In this document: piece after piece, positions 856-10,814 of the stretch
Layout of the letters: each line of letters opens with the position of its first letter
Numbering within the stretch: position 1 is the stretch's first letter
Assembly: GCA_947428535.1 (NCBI GenBank)
Contig: CANEMG010000015.1
Coordinates: 1 to 10,814, forward strand
Direction: 5' to 3'
DNA: 10,814 bases
From: an uncultured Clostridium sp.
Lineage (GTDB): Bacteria > Bacillota > Clostridia > TANB77 > CAG-508
Program-made: the position numbers and the translations under genes
Notes under the pieces: model-generated
Database searches by the model: none
The model's input: only the letters and a program-made list of their open reading frames with translations
What the model was told of the DNA's origin: nothing

Positions 856-894
856 AAATCTCCTATAATTTTCATTATAGGAGATTTGATTTTT
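856..894 (+). terminator. Terminator between convergent nitroreductase and sigma-fusion genes
   Basis: A 14-bp perfect inverted repeat (856-869 with 874-887) closes a 4-base TTTC loop. On the plus strand GA and five T residues (890-894) follow, making a good terminator for the nitroreductase. The T run overlaps the stop codon (895-893) of the opposing sigma-fusion gene. On the minus strand the hairpin is followed only by mixed A/T, so it would be a weaker terminator in that direction. Confidence 0.8.
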
Positions 895-2278
895 AAGATT
901 CGAAACTAAATAAAATTTTTGAATTTCCAATTTCATCTGATATTGAATAAGTGTTACCATTTGAATTAATTTTATTTCCTGAAGAATAAACAACATGATT
1001 ACCTTCAAAAGTTATATTTAATCTACTTGTATTAATTATTTTATTTTTACATTCAATATCAATTATCTGAACACAGTTAGTAAGTTCTTGATATTCATAA
1101 ACTCTAAGGATACCATCAATTCCATTATTGCAATTTTCAATAAACGTATTGAATAATTCTCTATTATTAGATATAACTTGGTTTGCTGAAATAACAAAAC
1201 AACCATCTGCTATTGCTTGTTCTTGAGAATAATCTTTTGGGATATCTTCTATTTTTATATATTTTGTAGACATATTAGGTACATTTGGATTATTATGAAC
1301 TATTATATTTGGTCTATTTAAGTCTTTAGAAACTTTAGTAGATATTATTGTGCTACCATCATATGTATCTTTTTTATTTAAATCTATATGAAGAATTTCA
1401 GTATCTGCTGAAATATTTGAAATATATAATCCTGTTGTATGATAATTTTCTCCTGCAATTACTACTACAAAAGAGTTTTCAAAATCTTTTTCTGTCATTT
1501 CAACTAGTCCAGACCATTTTTTTAGGTCTATTAAATAATTATTATAGGTCTCTATTTTTTTATAATATATACCATCATAATGCTGCATATCCTGAGAATA
1601 GTCATAATAATCAGGATTATTTTTGAAATCTGTTTTAGTTTCCTTTTGAATAAAATTATTATAAACTATTATGCTAGCATAAGCTATACTACCAATAAAT
1701 ATAGAGATTATAATAAAGTTTATAAATATTTTGTACATAGAATTATTTTTAGTTATTCTATTTCGCAGTTCTTTTCGTGCTCTATGAATTAACATTTTAA
1801 TTTGAGATGGCGTTTTATCAAGAATTTTAGATATTTCTTTGTATGTAAAACCGTGAATATCTTTTAAATAAATTACCATTTTATAATCAGATTTTAAAGT
1901 ATTAATAGTTCTCATTAAACCTTCTTTTTCTTCATTTTCTATTAAAATATTATCTATGTCTGTACTTAAAAGGTTAACATTGTTTTCATCAAATTGGATG
2001 TTTTCTTTTCTGTTTTTTAAATAGTTTATTGCTCTACTTTTGGCTATAGTATATAAATAAGTTTTGAAGCTATATTTAAAATCATATTCTTTTTTTGTTT
2101 TAAAAATATATAAAAAGGATTCTTGTGCGATATCTTCTGAAGATTCTAAACTGTTTACGTATTTCATAATAAAATATATTAAATTGTTTTCATGTCTTTT
2201 TACAATAATATTAAAAGCTTCTTGATTTCCATCTAAAAATTCTTTATATAGTTCTTGATCACTTAAATTTTTTTTCAT
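893..2278 (-). CDS. Membrane-anchored ECF-type sigma factor fused to an extracytoplasmic sensor-like region
   Basis: This 461-residue protein joins a transcription factor to a membrane sensor in one chain. Residues 1-91 form sigma-70 region 2, with SEDIAQESFLYIF at 47-59 and FKTYLYTIAKSRAINYLK at 71-88. Residues about 120-175 form region 4 with a helix-turn-helix (GFTYKEISKILDKTPSQIK, 143-161). Region 3 is missing, as in ECF factors. A basic stretch precedes a hydrophobic helix at about 184-206, predicting N-in/C-out topology. Outside lie about 250 residues. Residues 255-330 are beta-rich and resemble PrcB C-terminal domains (DFENSFVVVIAG...TTGLYIS). Residues 348-430 resemble DUF4362 proteins (YSQEQAIADGCFVIS...FIENCNNG) and hold all four cysteines of the protein (360, 383, 402, 410). 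The start at 2278 has AAGGAG 9 bases upstream. Both outer domain names are from memory and less certain than the sigma part. No separate anti-sigma gene is adjacent. Confidence 0.88.
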   Translation of the reverse strand: MKKNLSDQELYKEFLDGNQEAFNIIVKRHENNLIYFIMKYVNSLESSEDIAQESFLYIFKTKKEYDFKYSFKTYLYTIAKSRAINYLKNRKENIQFDENNVNLLSTDIDNILIENEEKEGLMRTINTLKSDYKMVIYLKDIHGFTYKEISKILDKTPSQIKMLIHRARKELRNRITKNNSMYKIFINFIIISIFIGSIAYASIIVYNNFIQKETKTDFKNNPDYYDYSQDMQHYDGIYYKKIETYNNYLIDLKKWSGLVEMTEKDFENSFVVVIAGENYHTTGLYISNISADTEILHIDLNKKDTYDGSTIISTKVSKDLNRPNIIVHNNPNVPNMSTKYIKIEDIPKDYSQEQAIADGCFVISANQVISNNRELFNTFIENCNNGIDGILRVYEYQELTNCVQIIDIECKNKIINTSRLNITFEGNHVVYSSGNKINSNGNTYSISDEIGNSKILFSFES

Positions 2279-2309
2279 AATATAATACTCCTTAAACGCT
2301 TTCTATTTA

Positions 2310-2338
2310 TATATACAATAAAAAAATAAAAAGGTCAC
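2310..2338 (-). promoter_or_regulatory. Tentative promoter of the sigma-fusion gene
   Basis: On the minus strand GTGACC (2338-2333) and TATATA (2315-2310) are 17 bases apart, with a TG immediately before the -10. This is a moderate housekeeping-type match. GTGACC followed by a T run also vaguely recalls -35 elements of ECF promoters, but no ECF-type CGT-containing -10 lies at a suitable distance: the nearest CGTTT (2298-2294) is 34 bases downstream. Autoregulation is therefore not demonstrated. Confidence 0.35.
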
Positions 2339-2361
2339 GCTTTTGGAAAAGAATTTAAAAT

Positions 2362-2404: not shown

Positions 2405-2608
2405 TTATTTTTTATCTTCTTTTGAATCAGAATCTTTTTTCTTTTTTTTATTAATTGGTATAATAACTTTCTTTTTATCATTTTTTTTAGGGCGTAGAGA
2501 ATTCATACAATCATTGACTTCAGAGATATTTAATACTGATTCATCCCCTATAACTATTTCTATATCATTTTCATTTTTTTGATTTTGATTGGTATTTTTA
2601 TTTTTCAT
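2405..2608 (-). CDS. Small lysine-rich hypothetical protein (67 aa)
   Basis: I do not recognise this protein with certainty. It is a 67-residue, strongly charged chain: an Asn/Gln/Lys-rich N-terminus (1-14), a hydrophobic-acidic core (DIEIVIGDESVLNISEVND, 15-33) continuing into CMNSLRPK, then a lysine-rich tail with VIIPINKKKKK (48-58) and a polar end. There is no signal peptide or membrane segment, so it is probably cytoplasmic; the basic tail could bind nucleic acid, but that is a guess. The start at 2608 is set by AGAGGTGAG at 2620-2612, which matches the anti-Shine-Dalgarno region; an in-frame upstream ATG at 2632 lies at the promoter and has no such site. A consensus promoter, a good ribosome binding site and a strong terminator all support a real gene. 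It is divergent from scpB. Confidence 0.8.
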   Translation of the reverse strand: MKNKNTNQNQKNENDIEIVIGDESVLNISEVNDCMNSLRPKKNDKKKVIIPINKKKKKDSDSKEDKK

Positions 2609-2636
2609 ATTCTCACCTCTTAGTAAATTCAAAATT

Positions 2637-3398: not shown

Positions 3399-4838
3399 AT
3401 GGAAAAGAAAGAAGAATTCGTAAAAGAAATTACAAATATAGAGGATGACTTTGCTCAATGGTATACAGATGTAGTAAAAAAAGCAGATTTAGCAGATTAT
3501 ACAGATTTAAAAGGTTTTGTAGCAATAAAACCTTATGGATATGCAATATGGGAAAACATACAAAATTATGCAGATATGAGATTTAAAGAAGTTGGAATAA
3601 CTAACCTTTATATGCCACTACTTATACCAGAAAGCATGTTACAAAAAGAAAGTGAACATGTTGAAGGATTTGCACCAGAAGTAGCTTGGGTTACAATGGG
3701 AGGAGGAGAAGAGTTAGAAGAAAGACTTTGCATAAGACCAACTTCAGAAACAATAATGTCTACAATGTATTCAAAATGGATAAATTCTTGGAGAGATTTA
3801 CCAATTTTAGGAAATCAATGGTGTAGTGTATTAAGATGGGAAAAAGAAACAAGACCATTTTTACGTTCAAGAGAATTTTTATGGCAAGAAGGTCATACAG
3901 TTCATGAATCAGCTAAAGAAGCTGAAGAAAGAACATTAACTATGTTAGATGTATATGCTGATGTTATAGAGAATCTTTTGGCAATACCAGTACTTAAAGG
4001 GCAAAAAACTAAAAAAGAACAATTTGCAGGTGCAGATGCTACATATACAGTAGAAACACTTATGCATGATGGAAGAGCACTTCAAGCAGGAACATCACAT
4101 TATTTTGGACAAAATTTTTCTAAGCCATTTAATATAAAATTTCAAAATAGAGAAGGAAAAGAAGAATATGCATATCAAACTTCTTGGGGAATTACAACAA
4201 GATTGATAGGTGCAGTTATTATGGCACACGGAGATAATAGAGGGTTAAAATTACCACCAAGAGTTGCTCCAATTCAAACAGTTATAGTTCCAATTGCACA
4301 GCATAAAGATGGAGTTTTAGATAATGCAAATAAATTATTTGAAGAACTAAAAACTGAATATAGAGTTAAATTAGATGATAGAGACAATTGTTCAACAGGT
4401 TTCAAATTTAATGATTGGGAAATGAGAGGAGTACCAGTTAGAATAGAATTAGGACCTAAAGATATAGAAAATGGAGAAGCAATTTTAGTAAGACGTGATA
4501 ATGGAGAAAAAGAAACAGTTAAACTTGAAAATCTAAAAGCAAGATTAGGAGAAGTTCTAGAAGATATTCAAGCAAGTATGTATAAAGCTTGTGAAAAAAT
4601 AAGAGAAGAAAGAACAACAGTTGCTTATACATTAGATGAAATAGCTAAAAACTTAGATGAAAATCAAGGATATGTTAAAACAATGTGGTGTGGATCTCAA
4701 GATTGTGAAGATAAAGTAAAAGAAGTTACAGGAGCACCATCAAGATGTATGCCATTTAAACAGGAACATATTGCAGATGTATGTCCAGTTTGTGGTAAAA
4801 AAGTAGATAAAATGATTGTCTGGGGAAGACAATATTAG
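3399..4838 (+). CDS. proS: Prolyl-tRNA synthetase, archaeal/eukaryotic-like type
   Basis: This class II enzyme charges tRNA-Pro with proline in the cytoplasm. The 479 residues are normal for the short form that lacks the bacterial editing insertion. Visible landmarks are motif 1 around MPLLIPE (72-78), RPTSET (113-118), motif 2 RWEKETRPFLRSREFLWQEG (146-165), and motif 3 GDNRGLKLPPR (278-288). The anticodon-binding domain spans about 292-400. The C-terminal zinc-type domain has cysteines at 431, 436, 450, 462 and 465, and the protein ends in aromatic GRQY, typical of this subclass. The start has GGAGGT 6 bases upstream. It lies 18 bases after scpB and 20 bases before the next gene, with no terminator at either junction, so co-transcription is likely. 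I see no T-box leader before it; the 18-base gap is far too short. Confidence 0.98.
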   Translation: MEKKEEFVKEITNIEDDFAQWYTDVVKKADLADYTDLKGFVAIKPYGYAIWENIQNYADMRFKEVGITNLYMPLLIPESMLQKESEHVEGFAPEVAWVTMGGGEELEERLCIRPTSETIMSTMYSKWINSWRDLPILGNQWCSVLRWEKETRPFLRSREFLWQEGHTVHESAKEAEERTLTMLDVYADVIENLLAIPVLKGQKTKKEQFAGADATYTVETLMHDGRALQAGTSHYFGQNFSKPFNIKFQNREGKEEYAYQTSWGITTRLIGAVIMAHGDNRGLKLPPRVAPIQTVIVPIAQHKDGVLDNANKLFEELKTEYRVKLDDRDNCSTGFKFNDWEMRGVPVRIELGPKDIENGEAILVRRDNGEKETVKLENLKARLGEVLEDIQASMYKACEKIREERTTVAYTLDEIAKNLDENQGYVKTMWCGSQDCEDKVKEVTGAPSRCMPFKQEHIADVCPVCGKKVDKMIVWGRQY

Positions 4839-4858
4839 ATTTGCACATAGGAGAAAAA

Positions 4859-5023
4859 ATGGAAATCACAAGATTTAATTTATCAGATTTCAAAAAAATA
4901 AGAGGTGAATGGGATATTCCTGGCAACTCTACTTCTGTAAGAGGAGAGTACCTTATACCAGGAATGAATATAACTGGATTTTACAAAATGAATGGTTGTA
5001 TGGGAATCGATAAACGGAAGTGA
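4859..5023 (+). pseudogene. N-terminal fragment of a frameshifted HipA-like kinase-fold gene
   Basis: ATG 4859 has AGGAG (4849-4853) 5 bases upstream and follows the proS stop by 20 bases, so it is the natural start of the next operon gene. The frame encodes 54 residues and ends at TGA 5021-5023. The sequence (YLIPGMNITGFYKMNG, 32-47) looks like the N-lobe of HipA/CtkA-like proteins, where a YK lysine sits on a nucleotide-contacting strand. The rest of the same domain continues in another reading frame that overlaps this one from 4992. That other frame has a stop (TGA 4989-4991) immediately upstream, so the shift must lie between 4992 and 5020. Removing one G of GGG 5002-5004, or one A of AAA 5012-5014, would restore a single protein of about 322 residues. 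Sequencing error and genuine inactivation cannot be told apart here. Confidence 0.7.
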
Positions 5024-5828
5024 AGATCTAAGAGAACATTTAGCTTCAAATATATTATCTGTAATTGGTTTTCCTAGTGCTGATGTTGTTTTAATATGTG
5101 ATGACAAAGCAGAGTACAGCCATAATTTAGAAGAGCACCATAATGGCTGCCTTTCTATAAATATATTAAAGGAAAATGAGGAATTTGTAGCTTTATATTT
5201 GAAAGGAAGTAAAAATGTAAGTGAGTTTATTGAAAACGATTTAGCACAAATTTCTACTTTACCTAATGTTACTCCAGAAGTAATTGAAAAAAGAAGAACT
5301 TATTTAGCACAATGGTTATATTGTTCTGCAATATTATCTAATACAGATTTAAAGTATGATAATCGTCAAATTATATATAATAAAAAAACAGGTAACTATA
5401 GGAACCCCGAATATTATGATGCAGGATTATCTTTTATATCAGATCATAGACATTTTTTTGATAAAAAAGATTCTAATGAAGTATTAAAAGAACTATATAA
5501 AGATTATGCAGTAGAAATTTTTCCACTAGCTCAAGAAACAGAAAAAAAACTTACTCCTGAAAAAGTCAATGAGTTATTGACAGATTCAGTATATGAAGGA
5601 TTTGGAAATGAAACAAAAAAGCAGATTATAGAAGGTTTAAATAATAGAGTTAGTTTAGTAAAAACATATAATCATAATATTCTTAAATATGGTAATGCAG
5701 AACCAGAACAAATTTCTATAAAAGATATAGAGAAAAAGTCTAGAGGAAGCAATATTGCACTAAAAGATAAAGTCGGTAATTTTATTTCTAATTTAAAAAA
5801 TAGAATTATTGGGAAGGATAATAGATAA
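4992..5828 (+). CDS. HipA/CtkA-like kinase-fold protein, C-terminal part (shifted frame)
   Basis: The frame open from 4992 encodes up to 278 residues and carries the main lobe of a HipA-like (CtkA-like) Ser/Thr kinase fold. NTDLKYDN (117-124, bases 5340-5363) fits the HipA catalytic loop with its D-x4-N spacing. PEYYDAGLSF (139-148) fits the later metal-binding aspartate loop. These residues look intact, so a repaired protein could be active. The ATG at 4992 has no ribosome binding site and lies inside the preceding frame, so I regard it as the continuation of the 4859 gene rather than an independent start. The C-terminus is basic and amphipathic (VGNFISNLKNRIIGK). The stop at 5826-5828 is directly followed by the partner gene. 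Unlike classical HipA, no HipB-type helix-turn-helix antitoxin gene is adjacent. Family placement is from motifs only. Confidence 0.7.
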   Translation: MVVWESINGSEDLREHLASNILSVIGFPSADVVLICDDKAEYSHNLEEHHNGCLSINILKENEEFVALYLKGSKNVSEFIENDLAQISTLPNVTPEVIEKRRTYLAQWLYCSAILSNTDLKYDNRQIIYNKKTGNYRNPEYYDAGLSFISDHRHFFDKKDSNEVLKELYKDYAVEIFPLAQETEKKLTPEKVNELLTDSVYEGFGNETKKQIIEGLNNRVSLVKTYNHNILKYGNAEPEQISIKDIEKKSRGSNIALKDKVGNFISNLKNRIIGKDNR

Positions 5829-5829
5829 T

Positions 5830-6264
5830 ATGTTGATCGTGACTGAACTAGATTATAAAAGAGCTTTTAAAGAAGTTCTAACTATATTAAAGTATATTCC
5901 TAAAGAAGATTTTGATAAAACTTTAGAAATGAATGAAGATAATTCATTTAATTATAAAATAGACTTTTCTAAAGATTTTGAGGAGCAAGATGTTTCAGAT
6001 GTTGCTAAAGCGATACTTTCTAATTTTTATAGAGATTACTGGGCAACTGAGGAAGAAAGAAAGCAAATCTTGAAAGATGAAGAAATAGAAAGAAATAAGG
6101 ATGAAGAAGAAAAAAGAAAAAAATATAATCCGGAGAATATTTTTGATAATCAAAATAAGAGTTTTAATATAGAAAATGAAAATATACAGACAGATTTAAT
6201 AGTAAAAAAAGAGAATTTTTTTCAAAAAATAATTTCTAAAATAAAATCAATAATAAAAAGATAA
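5830..6264 (+). CDS. Conserved-looking small protein paired with the HipA-like gene
   Basis: This 144-residue protein has no function that I know. The N-terminal half is mostly helical and contains ILKYIPKEDF (19-28), which looks like a family signature seen in clostridial proteins encoded near HipA-like kinases (from memory). Next comes EEQDVSDVAKAIL...FYRDYWAT (51-72), then a highly charged helix (73-98) ending in KRKKYNPENIF (95-105). An Asn-rich linker and a basic amphipathic C-terminal helix (FFQKIISKIKSIIKR, 130-144) follow. ATG 5830 begins one base after the upstream stop; GGGAAGG at 5811-5817 is 12 bases away, a loose fit, so translational coupling is plausible. An in-frame TTG at 5809 and GTG at 5839 are less likely starts. 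It is the last gene before the operon terminator. The basic tail resembles that of the HipA-like protein, suggesting a shared site of action, possibly the membrane surface. Confidence 0.75.
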   Translation: MLIVTELDYKRAFKEVLTILKYIPKEDFDKTLEMNEDNSFNYKIDFSKDFEEQDVSDVAKAILSNFYRDYWATEEERKQILKDEEIERNKDEEEKRKKYNPENIFDNQNKSFNIENENIQTDLIVKKENFFQKIISKIKSIIKR

Positions 6265-6269
6265 ATATT

Positions 6270-6310
6270 AAAAAGAGCAGATTATAAAATATGCTCTTTT
6301 TTATATTTTT
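6270..6310. terminator. Bidirectional terminator between the scpB-proS operon and the HD-GYP gene
   Basis: A 10-bp stem (6270-6279 with 6292-6301, core AAAAGAGCA/TGCTCTTTT) has a 12-base loop that can add three inner A/T pairs. On the plus strand it runs into TTATATTTTT. On the minus strand it ends in TTTTTAATATTT. The minus-strand gene's stop codon (6303-6301) overlaps the end of the stem, so both convergent units use one element. Confidence 0.88.
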
Positions 6311-7242
6311 AATTTTTTAATTTGTTTTATTTCATCATATAATTTACTAATGTGTTGTTTCCTAATTTCATAAGCTTTTTCAAACTCAGATAACATTAAA
6401 GGAATCTTTTCAGGGTCTTCATTAGGTTTTAAATAACATTTTATTTCTTCTTTTAAATATTCTCTTTTATCAGGAGTTTTAGCTACAATCATTTTATTAT
6501 AATATTTTTGTGCATCTTTAATTCTTTTAATTTCTTCTTTTAAAAAGTTAATATAGTCAGTTCTAGCAACAATTTCATATTCAGTATCTTCAATAATAAC
6601 TTTAAAAAGTACTTTTAAAATTTTCTTATCAATTTTTCCAACATTTGCAGTTTTAAAATTTTTAACTGCATCAGAAGCGTTTTTAACTTCTGGAGGTCTT
6701 GCATTACTAATCATAATGTTTAAAGCATCTATAATACCAATATGACTTTTGTATTGTCGTTTAGCTGTGATAGCTTCAAATTCATCTGCTACTCTAATAA
6801 TTTGAGCTTCATATGGAATTTTATCTCCTGTAATACCATTTGGATATCCAGTACCATTTAATGCTTCATGGTGATAATATGCACCAGCAGCATATGGACG
6901 TAATTTTAAATCATTCATACACATTTTATATCCTATTTTAGTATGTGATTTCATTATTGCAAATTCTTCATCTGTTAATTTTCCAGGTTTTTGAAGAACA
7001 GAATGTATTATAAAAATTTTTACGATATCGTTAATATATGCACAAGTTGTACAGTAAATAGTAAATCCTTTAGACATACCCAATTTTTCACAAAGCCTAC
7101 AAGTAATATTAGCAACATTTTCTGAATGACGTCTTGTAAAAGCATCTAGCCCATCTAGCATTTTTAATTGGTAACGTATTTTCTCATCTAAGTTATAAGA
7201 TTTGATTGATGTACTATTATAAAAGTCAAATGTTTCTTTCAT
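6301..7242 (-). CDS. HD-GYP-type protein with an altered HD dyad
   Basis: HD-GYP proteins are metal-dependent phosphodiesterases, many of which degrade cyclic di-GMP. This 313-residue protein has an HD-GYP domain at about 20-220 and a charged, probably coiled-coil C-terminus (230-310). Conserved parts are RRHSENVANI (37-46, first ligand H39), KPGKLTDEEFAIMKSH (85-100, H100), YHHEALNGTGYPNG (123-136) and RVADEFEAIT (150-159, D153). The central HD motif, normally HDIGK, reads NDIVK at 71-75: the histidine ligand is Asn and the glycine is Val. Loss of this ligand predicts reduced, altered or absent catalysis, so it may act as a binding protein. Several cysteines (48, 51, 64, 67) lie nearby. There is no signal peptide or membrane segment. 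GAGGAG (7254-7249) lies 6 bases before the ATG. It is transcribed alone, divergently from smc. Confidence 0.9.
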   Translation of the reverse strand: MKETFDFYNSTSIKSYNLDEKIRYQLKMLDGLDAFTRRHSENVANITCRLCEKLGMSKGFTIYCTTCAYINDIVKIFIIHSVLQKPGKLTDEEFAIMKSHTKIGYKMCMNDLKLRPYAAGAYYHHEALNGTGYPNGITGDKIPYEAQIIRVADEFEAITAKRQYKSHIGIIDALNIMISNARPPEVKNASDAVKNFKTANVGKIDKKILKVLFKVIIEDTEYEIVARTDYINFLKEEIKRIKDAQKYYNKMIVAKTPDKREYLKEEIKCYLKPNEDPEKIPLMLSEFEKAYEIRKQHISKLYDEIKQIKKLKI

Positions 7243-7281
7243 TAAAATCTCCTCATTTGTATATTAAAAATATATACATTT

Positions 7282-7310
7282 ATTTTATATCTTATTAAAA
7301 TTTTGGTCAA
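7282..7310 (-). promoter_or_regulatory. Promoter of the HD-GYP-type gene
   Basis: On the minus strand TTGACC (7310-7305) and TAAAAT (7287-7282) are 17 bases apart, each one mismatch from consensus. The start site would be near 7275, giving a leader of about 33 bases. Confidence 0.7.
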
Positions 7311-7329
7311 GAGAATTTATTATAAATGC

Positions 7330-7358
7330 TTGAAAAAAGTAGAAAAATATAATATGAT
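7330..7358 (+). promoter_or_regulatory. Promoter of smc
   Basis: TTGAAA (7330-7335) and TATGAT (7353-7358) are 17 bases apart. A perfect TATAAT also lies at 7348-7353 but is only 12 bases from this -35 and has no good -35 of its own. The promoter is close to and divergent from that of the HD-GYP-type gene. Confidence 0.65.
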
Positions 7359-7396
7359 AAATAAGATTAAAGTAAGAGAAATAGAGGAAAAATAAA

Positions 7397-8611
7397 ATGT
7401 ATCTTAAAAGGTTAGAAATGTATGGATTTAAGTCTTTTGCTGATAAAACAGTTTTAGATTTTATACCAGGAATAACTACAGTAATAGGTCCAAATGGATC
7501 AGGAAAAAGTAATATATCAGATTGTATTAGATGGATCTTAGGAGAGCAAAGTTTAAAATCTCTAAGGGGTACGAAATCAGAAGATATTATATTTGCAGGA
7601 ACACAAAATAGGAAAGCTTTAGGATATGCTGAAGCTTCTTTAGTAATAGATAATTCAGATAGTAAATTACCAATAGAATATAGTGAAGTTGTTGTTACTA
7701 GAAGAATATATAGAAGTGGTGAATCTGGATATTTTATAAACAAAACACCATGTAGATTAAAAGATGTTCTAGAATTATTTATGGATACTGGAATTGGAAA
7801 AGATGGGTATTCTATTATAGGTCAAGGAAAAATAGATGAAATATTAAGTAATAAATCAGAAGATAGAAGACACATTTTTGAAGAAGCAGCAGGTATTGTA
7901 AAATACAGAACTAGAAAAGCAGATTCAGAAAAAAAATTAGAGCAAACAAAATTAAATTTACTTAGAATAAATGATATTATTTCTGAAATCGAAAGTAATA
8001 TAGAACCTTTAAAAATTCAATCAGAAAAAGCAAAAAAATTTTTAAGTTTGAGAGAGGAACTTAAAAATATTGAAGTAGGATTGTTTTTATATAACATAGA
8101 AAATTACAAAGCTCAAACACAAGAAGTATTAGAAAATATTGATATTTTTGAAACTCAAAAAGTAAAAGAAGAAGAGAATTTAAATAACATACAAACAGAA
8201 AAAGAAAATATAAAAGTACTTATAGATAAATTAATAGAAGAAATAGAAAGAACTCAAAACTTGAATTTTGAAGGAAATCAAAAGAAAGAACAATATAATA
8301 GCGAAATAGGAATTACTCAGGAAAGAATATCAAATAACAAAGAAAATTATGAAAGATATGAAAAAGAATTAGAAGAACTAGAAAATCGTAACAAAGAATT
8401 AGAAGAAGAGAAAAAACAAAAAGAAGAAAAGAAAAATAATTTATTTACAAATAAAGAAAAGTTTGAAACAGAGCTTAAAGAAAAAGAAGCGGAATTAGAA
8501 AAATACTCTAAAACTTTATCAGATAAAGAAATTGAAATAGAGAAAAAGAAACAAATTGTACAAACTAATATAGATAATAAATATGAAATATTAGCAAATT
8601 TAAATGCATAA
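7397..8611 (+). CDS. smc: Chromosome partition protein SMC, N-terminal part ending at a premature TAA
   Basis: SMC is the ATP-driven core of bacterial condensin; it dimerises at its hinge and acts with ScpA and ScpB on the nucleoid. Residues 1-160 form the N-terminal half of the ATPase head. Walker A is GPNGSGKS (31-38), followed by the typical LRGTKSEDIIFAG and the DGYSIIGQGKID and FEEAAGI segments. From about 165 to 404 the chain is a Glu/Lys-rich coiled coil, the descending arm. The frame then meets TAA at 8609-8611, where codon 405 should be, well short of the 1,150-1,200 residues normal for SMC. The same frame continues to the window end with recognisable SMC sequence, so one point change explains the break. 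AGAGGA (7383-7388) lies 8 bases before the ATG. The product as read lacks the hinge and the Walker B half and should not function. Confidence 0.93.
   Translation: MYLKRLEMYGFKSFADKTVLDFIPGITTVIGPNGSGKSNISDCIRWILGEQSLKSLRGTKSEDIIFAGTQNRKALGYAEASLVIDNSDSKLPIEYSEVVVTRRIYRSGESGYFINKTPCRLKDVLELFMDTGIGKDGYSIIGQGKIDEILSNKSEDRRHIFEEAAGIVKYRTRKADSEKKLEQTKLNLLRINDIISEIESNIEPLKIQSEKAKKFLSLREELKNIEVGLFLYNIENYKAQTQEVLENIDIFETQKVKEEENLNNIQTEKENIKVLIDKLIEEIERTQNLNFEGNQKKEQYNSEIGITQERISNNKENYERYEKELEELENRNKELEEEKKQKEEKKNNLFTNKEKFETELKEKEAELEKYSKTLSDKEIEIEKKKQIVQTNIDNKYEILANLNA
8609..8611 (+). other. In-frame TAA interrupting smc
   Basis: Codon 405 of smc reads TAA in the context NLNA-stop-KANFDNL. One change from CAA (Gln, a C-to-T transition), AAA (Lys) or GAA (Glu) would produce it, and any of these would suit the coiled coil. 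TAA also ends other genes in this window, so recoding is unlikely. Confidence 0.95.
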
Positions 8612-10814
8612 AAAGCTAATTTTGATAATTTAGGAAAAAGAGAAAATTCTTTAAAAAGTGAAATTCAAGAAACAATATCAGAATTAGATAGCTCAAGAGC
8701 AACAAAAGAAGAGAATTCAAAAGGTTTTTATGAATTAGAGAAGAAAAGAAATGATGTTGCTAAAAAACTTGAAGCTATGAAAGAAGAAAAAGATAGTAGT
8801 TCAGAAAAACTTAAACAATTTGATGAAAAAATAAATACTTATCAATCAGAATATAGAATAAAAGAATCTAAATACAAATTTTTAGTAGAAACAGAAAAAG
8901 AAAAAGAAGGATATACGAAGAGTGTAAAACTTTTATTAGATGCTACAGAAAGAAATCCTGGCTTGTCAAGAGGAGTTCATGGGATTTTAGCAAATTTAAT
9001 TCAAGTAGATAAGAAATACGAAACAGCTATTGAAATGACTTTAGGAGGAACAATTCAAAATATTGTTACAGATTCTGAAGAGGAAGCAAAGAAACTTGTA
9101 AATTATTTAAGAGAAAATAAATTAGGACGTGCTTCATTTTTACCTATAACATCTGTTAAAGGTCAAAGAATAGCTGGAGTACATACACGAGGGGTAGATG
9201 GAGTAATAGGAATTGCCTCAGATTTAATAAGTTGTGATAAAAAATATGAAGGAATAGTTTTGAATTTATTAGGAAGAACTGTTGTTGTAGAAGATATTGA
9301 CAATGCAGTTAAACTTGCAAAATTAAATTCTTATAAATTCAAAATTGTAACTTTAAAAGGTGATATTATAAACCCATCAGGAGCAATAAGTGGTGGTTCT
9401 GTTGCCAATAAAACGACTAGCATTTTAGGAAGAGGAAAAGAAATAAAATCTCTTGAGTTAGAATTAAGAGAAATAAAAACGAAAATTGAAAAAATTGAAA
9501 AAGAAAAAGCAGATTATGAAGCAAGCATTTCAGAAATTTTGAATACATTTGATGTAAAACAAAAAGAAGCACAAGAATTAGAAATTATATATGCTACAGA
9601 AAAACAAAAAAATGATAATTTAGATTTAGAAATACTAAAATTAGATAGCAAGCTTGCAAAATTAAGAGATGATTTAGAAAATACTAAAACAGAAAAAGAA
9701 GAAAATGTTAGAGGTCAAGAAGAATTAAATAAACAAATTCAAGAAACGGAAAAAGAAAATCAATCTTTAGAAATAGTTATAGAAGAATTTACTAATTTAA
9801 ATAAAGATAATCAAAAATACATAGATGATTTAAATTTTGATATAACAAATTTAAGAATATCAGTATCTTCATTTGATGAAAGTGAAACATCAATAAATGA
9901 GATGGTAGAAAGAATAGATTTAGACATACAAAACAATTCTACAAGTATACAAAATAAAATTGAATTAAGAGAAAATATATTATTAGAGAATACAGAACTT
10001 GAAAATAAAATAGCAGATGTGAAACAAAAAATATTAGATTTAGAAAAAGAGATTTTAGGTAGTACAGATAAAGTTGAAAAGCTAAAGAACGAAAGAACAG
10101 AAAAAAATGAAAAATTAATTAGCATTGAAAAAAACATTGAAGAACAAAACTTAAAATTAGAAGAAGTAAAAACTCAAATTTCAAAATTAGATTTAAAGAA
10201 ATCAAAAATCGAGCTTGAACTAAATCAAGTTATAAACAAAATGTGGGAAGAATATGAATTAACACCTAATAATGTCCAAGATGTAGAAAAAATAACAAAT
10301 CCAGCAGAAGTACAAAAACAAGTAAACACAATTAGAGGTGAAATTAAAAATCTAGGAAGTATAAATGTTGATGCTATAAAAGAATATAAAGAAATAAAAG
10401 AAAGATATGATTTTATGAGTGAGCAACGTTTAGATCTTGAAGATTCTAGTAACAAATTAAGAAAAGTTATTAGTGAAATGACAGAAACAATGAAAAAGCA
10501 ATTTTCTGAACAGTTTAAAATTATAAATAAAAATTTTGGAGAAGTATTTGCAGAGTTGTTTGGCGGAGGAAAAGCAGAATTAATTCTTGCAGATGAGGAT
10601 AATATATTAGAATGTGGAATCGAAATTGCAGTTCAACCACCTGGAAAAAAATTGCAAAATATGATGTTGTTATCAGGAGGAGAAAGAGCCTTTACGGCTA
10701 TTGCTTTATTGTTTGCAATATTAAAAATAAACCCAGCACCATTTTGTGTACTTGATGAAATAGAAGCAGCTCTTGATGATGTAAATGTATATAGATTTGC
10801 AGAATACTTAAGGA
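8612..10814 (+). pseudogene. smc: SMC C-terminal part, in frame after the premature stop (runs off the window)
   Basis: Reading codon by codon from 8612 to the end I find no further stop and no frame change, through about 734 codons. The arm continues to about residue 515 (numbering through the stop). The hinge domain follows at about 515-670: RGVHGILANLIQVDKKYETA, GGTIQNIVTDSEEEA, LGRASFLP, and GDIINPSGAISGGS at 655-668. The ascending coiled coil comes next. The C-terminal head half has the signature LSGGERAFTAIALLFAILK from 1092 and Walker B FCVLDEIEAALDD from 1116. The window ends at about residue 1139, some 40 codons before the expected end. The first in-frame ATG after the stop is 8777, with no convincing ribosome binding site, so independent translation seems unlikely. 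Preservation of every key motif argues for a very recent lesion or a sequence error. Confidence 0.9.

Follow-up and report, generated by a model that had tools for sequence, protein, structure and literature searches.

The window analysed here (the whole stretch of 10,814 nt) carries on its minus strand, between an ATG at 2278 and a stop at 893, a gene of 461 open codons in which an ECF sigma factor, one transmembrane helix and an outer region form a single polypeptide (893..2278; ORF list and homologues). Its nearest relatives encode the same parts as two overlapping genes. Even so, 43 of 77 non-redundant genes of the family, the window gene among them, are built in one piece, so that we take this for a genuine architecture and no lone oddity, and every one of these fusions lacks the cytoplasmic segment with which the membrane partners of the two-gene form begin. 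We consider it probable that in the window protein the membrane tether replaces an anti-sigma domain and that proteolysis in two steps would free the sigma domain. On inspection, the plus-strand frame from 893 is full of stops.

Judged from its sequence, the N-terminal part of the protein (residues 1-175) is a complete ECF sigma factor. It consists of region 2 (residues 26-91; 2006..2203, minus strand; Sigma70_r2, PF04542, E 3.1e-12) and region 4 (residues 121-171; 1766..1918, minus strand; Sigma70_r4_2, PF08281, E 1.3e-13), both matched above the Pfam cut-offs, without regions 1 and 3, as defines the ECF type, and the NCBIfam sigma70-ECF model scores 84.3 bits against a cut-off of 42.9. Matches to solved structures, for example 1or7, a sigma-E factor (E 5.6e-19), agree with this. 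Across the other 76 family members, 25 alignment columns reach an identity of 90% or more; the protein retains 24 of these, compared with a mean of 23.9 among the others, and it is predicted to direct transcription from ECF promoters. The sigma domain is followed by a short cytoplasmic linker (residues 172-183; 1730..1765, minus strand), free of any anti-sigma segment, and by the only hydrophobic helix of the protein, called from hydropathy at about residues 184-202 (1673..1729, minus strand); the best 19-residue window is 188-206 (Kyte-Doolittle 2.3), and the hydrophobic run reads by eye as about 184-201. The two sigma regions, a single helix at 184-206 and the lack of an adjacent anti-sigma gene had all been put forward in an earlier note on this DNA, and on these points our results agree with it: neither the ORF list nor the Pfam scan of the window ORFs contains an anti-sigma gene, Pfam and a profile of the cytoplasmic segment detect no zinc finger or other cytoplasmic anti-sigma domain in the protein itself, and a search with a split partner as the query finds no second partner-like gene in the own genome, which is 74% complete.

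That genome is a draft of 1.36 Mb in 273 contigs, in which nothing but the window gene matches at E<=0.001. When genome contigs were scanned, 14 loci were obtained, 12 of them from uncultured Clostridia, one from an uncultured Clostridiaceae and one from an uncultured Clostridium sp.; matches were present in 37 of 56 kin genomes (E<=1e-10) and in 82 of 287 genomes drawn from the order (E<=1e-20), the own genome being included in both sets. Loci of the split layout have a sigma gene of ~180-220 codons and, overlapping or adjoining it, a gene for a membrane protein. The latter begins with ~38 residues on the cytoplasmic side, in which the pattern F-(I/L)-x-x-(I/V)-(Y/W)-x-K-Y recurs, and continues with a helix and the outer region. 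By its position and by analogy with RsiV, we presume this cytoplasmic segment to be the anti-sigma domain. In the fused layout, the sigma factor, the helix and the outer region share one frame, without the segment, and the linker from the end of the sigma profile match to the best helix window measures 5-13 residues in all 43 fused genes.

For the count, sigma frames scoring at least 190 bits were taken from the loci in hand and copies more than 97% identical were removed, leaving 77 genes, 43 fused (window gene included) and 34 unfused, a ratio that is biased towards fusions and represents no population frequency, as some 37 of the 40 fetched stretches had been picked for a long open frame. 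Eleven weaker sigma frames, five of them open over 307-559 aa, were dropped. The segment profile matches none of the 43 fused proteins but matches the adjoining partner of 33 of the 34 unfused genes, partly by construction, the profile having been built from 21 split partners. The one exception, L055, lies inside a fused clade and has the appearance of a fused gene that a stop codon has broken. When the split partner of L004 was searched against the own genome, it matched only the window gene, and the match begins at partner residue 34, indicating that the cytoplasmic segment is missing at the joint of the window gene. The fusion described in the earlier note has split genes as its nearest homologues and yet stands as an architecture shared with many other relatives.

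In the tree of sigma domains, the window gene belongs to a clade with 13 split genes (support 100/99), and the other 42 fusions lie elsewhere, in clade A (24) and clade B (18). Its place inside the split clade is unsure (sister L009, support 81/55) and its branch is long (0.71). With two outgroups and L029 left out, the fused label needs two changes, and none of 200 bootstrap trees gets by with one; forcing all 44 fused rows (L055 included) into one clade is disfavoured, with a moderately small AU p of 0.035. From the tree, the window fusion most likely represents an event separate from the other fusions, with the segment absent after both. The two-gene form is presumed to be ancestral, a polarity that rests on the nested position of the window gene and a midpoint root.

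In the course of events that we favour, the split form would encode, in the gene overlapping the end of the sigma gene, a membrane protein whose short cytoplasmic part serves as the anti-sigma segment; on the way to the window gene, the sigma and partner genes would have been joined in frame and the segment lost. The C-terminal helix would then anchor the sigma domain in the membrane, with the outer sensor on the same chain, and region 4, ~12 residues from the membrane, would be hindered in holoenzyme formation. An envelope signal acting on the outer region would expose a candidate signal peptidase I site at the helix exit, AYA-S (residues 199-202; 1673..1684, minus strand; recurring motif pattern), where signal peptidase I would make the site 1 cut before the serine. 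A RasP/RseP-type protease would make the site 2 cut inside the helix, and the freed sigma domain would transcribe its targets, including its own gene. Tethering with proteolytic release had been suggested in the earlier note, and it is the best-supported reading by virtue of the exit site, the comparison of segment-less fusions with split homologues and the precedent of IutY, although of the two domain labels attached to the outer region in that note one has fallen and the other is weak, as detailed below.

The closest known protein in layout is IutY of Pseudomonas putida (ECF243), in which, according to the sections of the published report that concern its build, one polypeptide of 374 aa runs from an ECF sigma domain in the cytosol through a single membrane helix to an outer domain, a variant ending at residue 168 consists of the sigma domain only, and no cytosolic N-tail is described between the sigma domain and the helix (PMC5411451). 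The same sections state that RseP is needed for the activity of every tested truncation that keeps the helix and that the sigma domain alone is active without RseP, albeit less so; the helix-bearing truncations are undetectable without RseP, so that stability is a confounder (PMC5411451). In the window protein, as in IutY, the sigma domain leads straight into a single helix, beyond which lies an outer domain. By contrast, the IutY outer domain, as described there, belongs to the Gram-negative iron-siderophore (cell-surface signalling) type and undergoes trimming by Prc, whereas the outer region of the window protein has no such Pfam match (E<=1) and is preceded by a signal-peptidase-like site, a distinction drawn from descriptions of the two proteins. 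No TonB-dependent receptor gene was detected by Pfam among the seven window ORFs scanned. We therefore suggest, by analogy, that the window protein may work like IutY, but do not file it under ECF243, as it lacks a cell-surface-signalling domain and a receptor gene.

The split partners, in turn, follow the plan of RsiV and the other DUF4179 anti-sigma factors of Firmicutes (ECF30), as far as these are described in the sources cited here: a short cytoplasmic segment, a helix, an AXA-type site 1 and an outer sensor. In Bacillus subtilis RsiV, with its cytoplasmic helix at 37-59, the AXA site just outside the membrane helix is reported to be cut by signal peptidase upon lysozyme binding, followed by site-2 protease (PMC4183432). 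RsiP is likewise reported to be cut by signal peptidase at a similar site (PMC8844934), and an amphipathic stretch in DUF4179 is said in part of a further report to guard the cleavage site of RsiV (PMC6066255). RsiV is a separate protein, whereas the window protein has the sigma domain in its own chain and no cytoplasmic segment. Pfam finds no DUF4179 in the window protein; among the relatives scanned singly, the only matches are those of the fused L036 (29.7 bits) and the split L027 (22.5 bits), both below the cut-off of 30.1. The small-x-Ala site just outside the helix, as used in RsiV-like regulated proteolysis, is present in the window protein, and an RsiV-type protective amphipathic helix is weakly suggested at residues 205-216 (moment about 0.45). 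By analogy, cleavage of the window protein by signal peptidase and then site-2 protease in response to a signal is predicted.

At the level of the family, the pattern [AVSTG][YF][AG] is found close to where the helix leaves the membrane in 35 of the 43 fused proteins and in 26 of the 33 split ones, although at least two of the latter matches (GFGV and TFGF, in L006 and L007) lie inside the helix, both proteins carrying VTYAG slightly further on; it is absent from eight fused and seven split proteins, several of which have a looser small-x-Ala. By eye, the motif (YA-G/S) is absent from L028, L038 and L039, the three stand-alone anchored homologues of the outer region that were inspected. The own genome encodes one M50 site-2 protease of the RasP/RseP type (E 8.1e-64) and one S26 signal peptidase I (E 2.5e-54), the presence of which says little, since these proteases are near-universal (12 of 14 control genomes have a signal peptidase and all 14 an M50 protease).

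These observations bear on an alternative in which the sigma factor would be active while anchored, an outer signal altering its conformation or oligomeric state and bringing RNA polymerase to the membrane without any cleavage. CadC and ToxR are membrane-bound regulators that work in this anchored state. With no inhibitor segment in the cytoplasm, nothing visible blocks the sigma surfaces, and the linkers are uniformly short, both of which are compatible with anchored activity. Nevertheless, region 4 would sit very near the membrane, the exit motif is common to the split partners, as expected for proteolysis, and IutY, the studied protein of the same layout, depends on RseP in the portion of the work cited above (PMC5411451); we regard anchored activity as unlikely, though it deserves to be weighed. 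Regulated release is itself open to objections: the exit motif could serve helix packing or membrane exit, the loss of IutY activity without RseP is no clean proof that tethering inhibits, and the window gene sits on a long branch and comes from one 74%-complete draft, with an interrupted SMC gene on the same contig.

Upstream of the gene, a Shine-Dalgarno sequence, AAGGAG, was seen by eye nine bases before the ATG (2288..2293, minus strand), preceded by an ECF-like promoter, GCGTGAC-N15-TTGTAT (2313..2340, minus strand), similar to sites before the sigma genes of relatives. A perfect TGAAACTTTTT stands upstream of 18 genes, all of clade A or L055, and an xxAC-N15/16-T(T/C)GTAT site precedes 28 of the other 76 genes, namely, 18 unfused genes and 10 fused genes of clade B. 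A profile of those 28 sites, which were collected with a filter set by eye and from which the window gene was left out, recovers GCGTGACCTTTTT-N-TTGTATA at 2340-2312 with a score that only four of 5000 Markov samples of this upstream stretch reach. The promoter-like site suggests that the sigma factor transcribes its own gene. Further upstream lies a Lys-rich ORF of 75 codons (2405-2632, minus strand; no convincing Pfam match), 3' of which a hairpin with a T run is visible by eye (2394-2365); it would end the small ORF, and the sigma gene thus probably stands alone.

An attempt to derive a regulon from the promoter pattern gave 39 sites in 56 genomes (own included) versus 27 for the reversed control, and no member is claimed beyond the gene itself. 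The own genome contains two such sites, one at the window gene, where the match is no independent evidence because the pattern allowed that gene's own letters, and another among A-rich repeats between mraZ and rsmH (named by eye), which is on the strand facing away from rsmH and is taken as chance.

If the anchor were instead cut constitutively as an ordinary signal peptide, the outer region would be secreted, the sigma domain would always be free and control would be transcriptional only. The stretch does read like a signal peptide, a hydrophobic core followed by AYA-S, and the sigma gene has a promoter-like site and a Shine-Dalgarno sequence of its own; still, nothing would in that case explain why the outer region remains fused or adjacent to the sigma factor, yet 43 genes have a helix behind the sigma domain in the same chain and 33 have it in an adjoining gene, so that we find this alternative very unlikely. 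A caution on the draft sequence comes from an SMC gene (named by eye) at 7397-10813 of the window, the frame of which stops after 7397-8611, with SMC-like sequence resuming at 8777 and remaining open to the window's end. Gene decay or faulty assembly as the source of the fusion is less probable still. The long branch, the fragmentary draft (74% complete, 273 contigs), the interrupted SMC gene nearby and the lack of a near-identical copy from a second assembly in the 56 kin genomes, the 287 order genomes and the contig scan, from which near records may be missing, would fit it. However, all 461 codons are open, and the gene aligns collinearly with relatives before and after the joint; 24 of the 25 conserved sigma positions are intact, a promoter-like site and a Shine-Dalgarno sequence are in place, the split-partner match omits 33 N-terminal residues in frame, more than an error of one base could bring about, and there are 42 other non-redundant fusions.

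Fused membrane extensions of ECF factors are known elsewhere. ECF52, ECF48 and ECF53 of Actinobacteria (e.g. SCO4117) resemble the window protein, according to the parts of two reports that treat them, in combining an ECF sigma factor with a C-terminal membrane helix and an outer extension (PMC8999054, PMC5826349); the former names these groups, ECF36, ECF243 and others among the factors joined to anti-sigma or membrane parts (PMC8999054). However, the extensions of ECF52, ECF48 and ECF53 are described as carrying a zinc-finger (anti-sigma-like) domain and, in ECF52, also a carbohydrate-binding outer domain, and Pfam detects neither in the window protein, which has no cysteine before residue 360. 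No description of this architecture in Clostridia was found among open-licence PMC papers, where silence is weak evidence of absence, nor did these papers yield a hit for the pairing of such outer domains with a sigma factor, which the earlier note had held to be perhaps little described. By comparison with these systems, the IutY-type one-piece layout is already known, and the window protein appears to be a further version of it, with another outer region and no receptor gene. The fusions, each without the anti-sigma segment, amount to a natural experiment, with the split relatives as matched controls that share the outer region, and suggest that covalent membrane attachment alone can keep an ECF sigma factor inactive. 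With this family, the IutY case would reach into Gram-positive bacteria, where the first protease is likely to be another one and the outer domains are exchangeable.

The outer region of the window protein (residues 207-461) was modelled by AlphaFold2 with good confidence (pLDDT 91, pTM 0.80; 24-sequence alignment) and is mostly strand, in line with the beta-rich part noted earlier. It has no recognizable fold relative in the PDB: none of 370 Foldseek matches (those at E<=10) reaches E<=0.001, and the PDB sequence-profile search gave only two matches (E 0.023 and 0.027). The label PrcB-like, which the earlier note gave to the first part (residues 207-340; 1259..1660, minus strand), is rejected, being without support even at relaxed thresholds: PrcB_C (PF14343) matches neither the window protein (E<=1), nor the window gene in a search of the own genome (E<=10), nor any of the 12 members of alignment A1 (the window protein and 11 homologues). 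For the second part (residues 345-461; 896..1246, minus strand), which had been called DUF4362-like, the label survives at the family level only; DUF4362 (PF14275) matches four of the 12 members of A1 (best E 4.4e-4), with scores for L002, L004 and L010 of 16.6, 19.5 and 17.5 bits, below the cut-off of 25, but not the window protein (E<=1) or, in the own-genome search, its gene (E<=10), so that the homologues lend weak support to this identity. All four cysteines do lie in this C-terminal part, as had been noticed (360, 383, 402 and 410). Only C360 is conserved, in 21 of 24 aligned sequences, the others being cysteine in two, one and one of 24, respectively, and a conserved disulphide among them is accordingly unlikely from the alignment. 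In alignment A2, the outer region shows 31-46% identity with the split partners and 25-31% with the fusions of clade A. The stand-alone proteins L028, L038 and L039 are membrane-anchored with the same outer region as the window protein, and no sigma factor or cytoplasmic segment was seen in them.

A different outer domain is found in many clade A fusions (L004:3985-5778 on the plus strand, L030, L032, L089, L090, L093, L096, L103 and L109) and in some split partners (L014, L011, L020 and L021). The model of the L004 domain, the only member modelled (382 residues, 13 sequences, pLDDT 85, pTM 0.60), has 120 PDB matches at E<=0.001, and all of the 50 listed are serpins; among these 50, most align over 190-200 columns at an rmsd of 4-6, some are longer at an rmsd of 12-24, and the TM-score is at most 0.34 of the query. 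The model thus points to a partial likeness to serpins. From sequence alone, a serpin identity is unsupported, the fold search being the only clear signal: the PDB sequence-profile search found no serpin, and Pfam Serpin matches one of six members scanned (L014, E 7.3e-4, 19.3 bits, below the cut-off of 27). The domain contains an E-x-G stretch which we take to resemble the serpin hinge, and such a sensor might report proteases. Overall, and only tentatively, we picture one order of Clostridia in which ECF sigma factors were fused to their membrane partners on two or more occasions, the anti-sigma segment being lost in each case, so that the tether would act as the anti-sigma factor in a protease-released one-component platform with exchangeable sensors (DUF4362-like, DUF4179-like and serpin-like), and in which internal starts in many members of the two fused clades might allow one gene to make both a tethered sigma factor and a free sensor.

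An in-frame ATG is present in the linkers of 22 of 24 clade A and 10 of 18 clade B fusions, for instance, around residue 186 of 3985-5778 in L004. A Shine-Dalgarno sequence of at least five bases precedes 27 of 34 linker Met codons (window gene's included) versus 18 of 354 other internal ATGs. When synonymous codons were redrawn, linkers of the KKG type had 21 of 21 against 12.3 expected and those of the EKV type 7 of 8 against 0.2, and the four other linkers had one, an excess inflated by shared ancestry. The linker ATG with its Shine-Dalgarno sequence may possibly yield a second product, a sensor without the sigma domain; Met181 of the window gene has no Shine-Dalgarno sequence.

Elsewhere in the window, two plus-strand ORFs of 278 and 151 aa (4992-6264) lie between proS (named by eye) and an HD-domain gene, with no convincing Pfam match. 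Among the relatives, the partner ATG at L002 directly follows the sigma stop codon in the same frame (6547-6552), placing this gene pair one stop away from a fusion that would keep the cytoplasmic segment. At L004/L005, the fused sigma gene (3985-5778) is located directly upstream of a split pair of the same family (5983-7517) in the same orientation.
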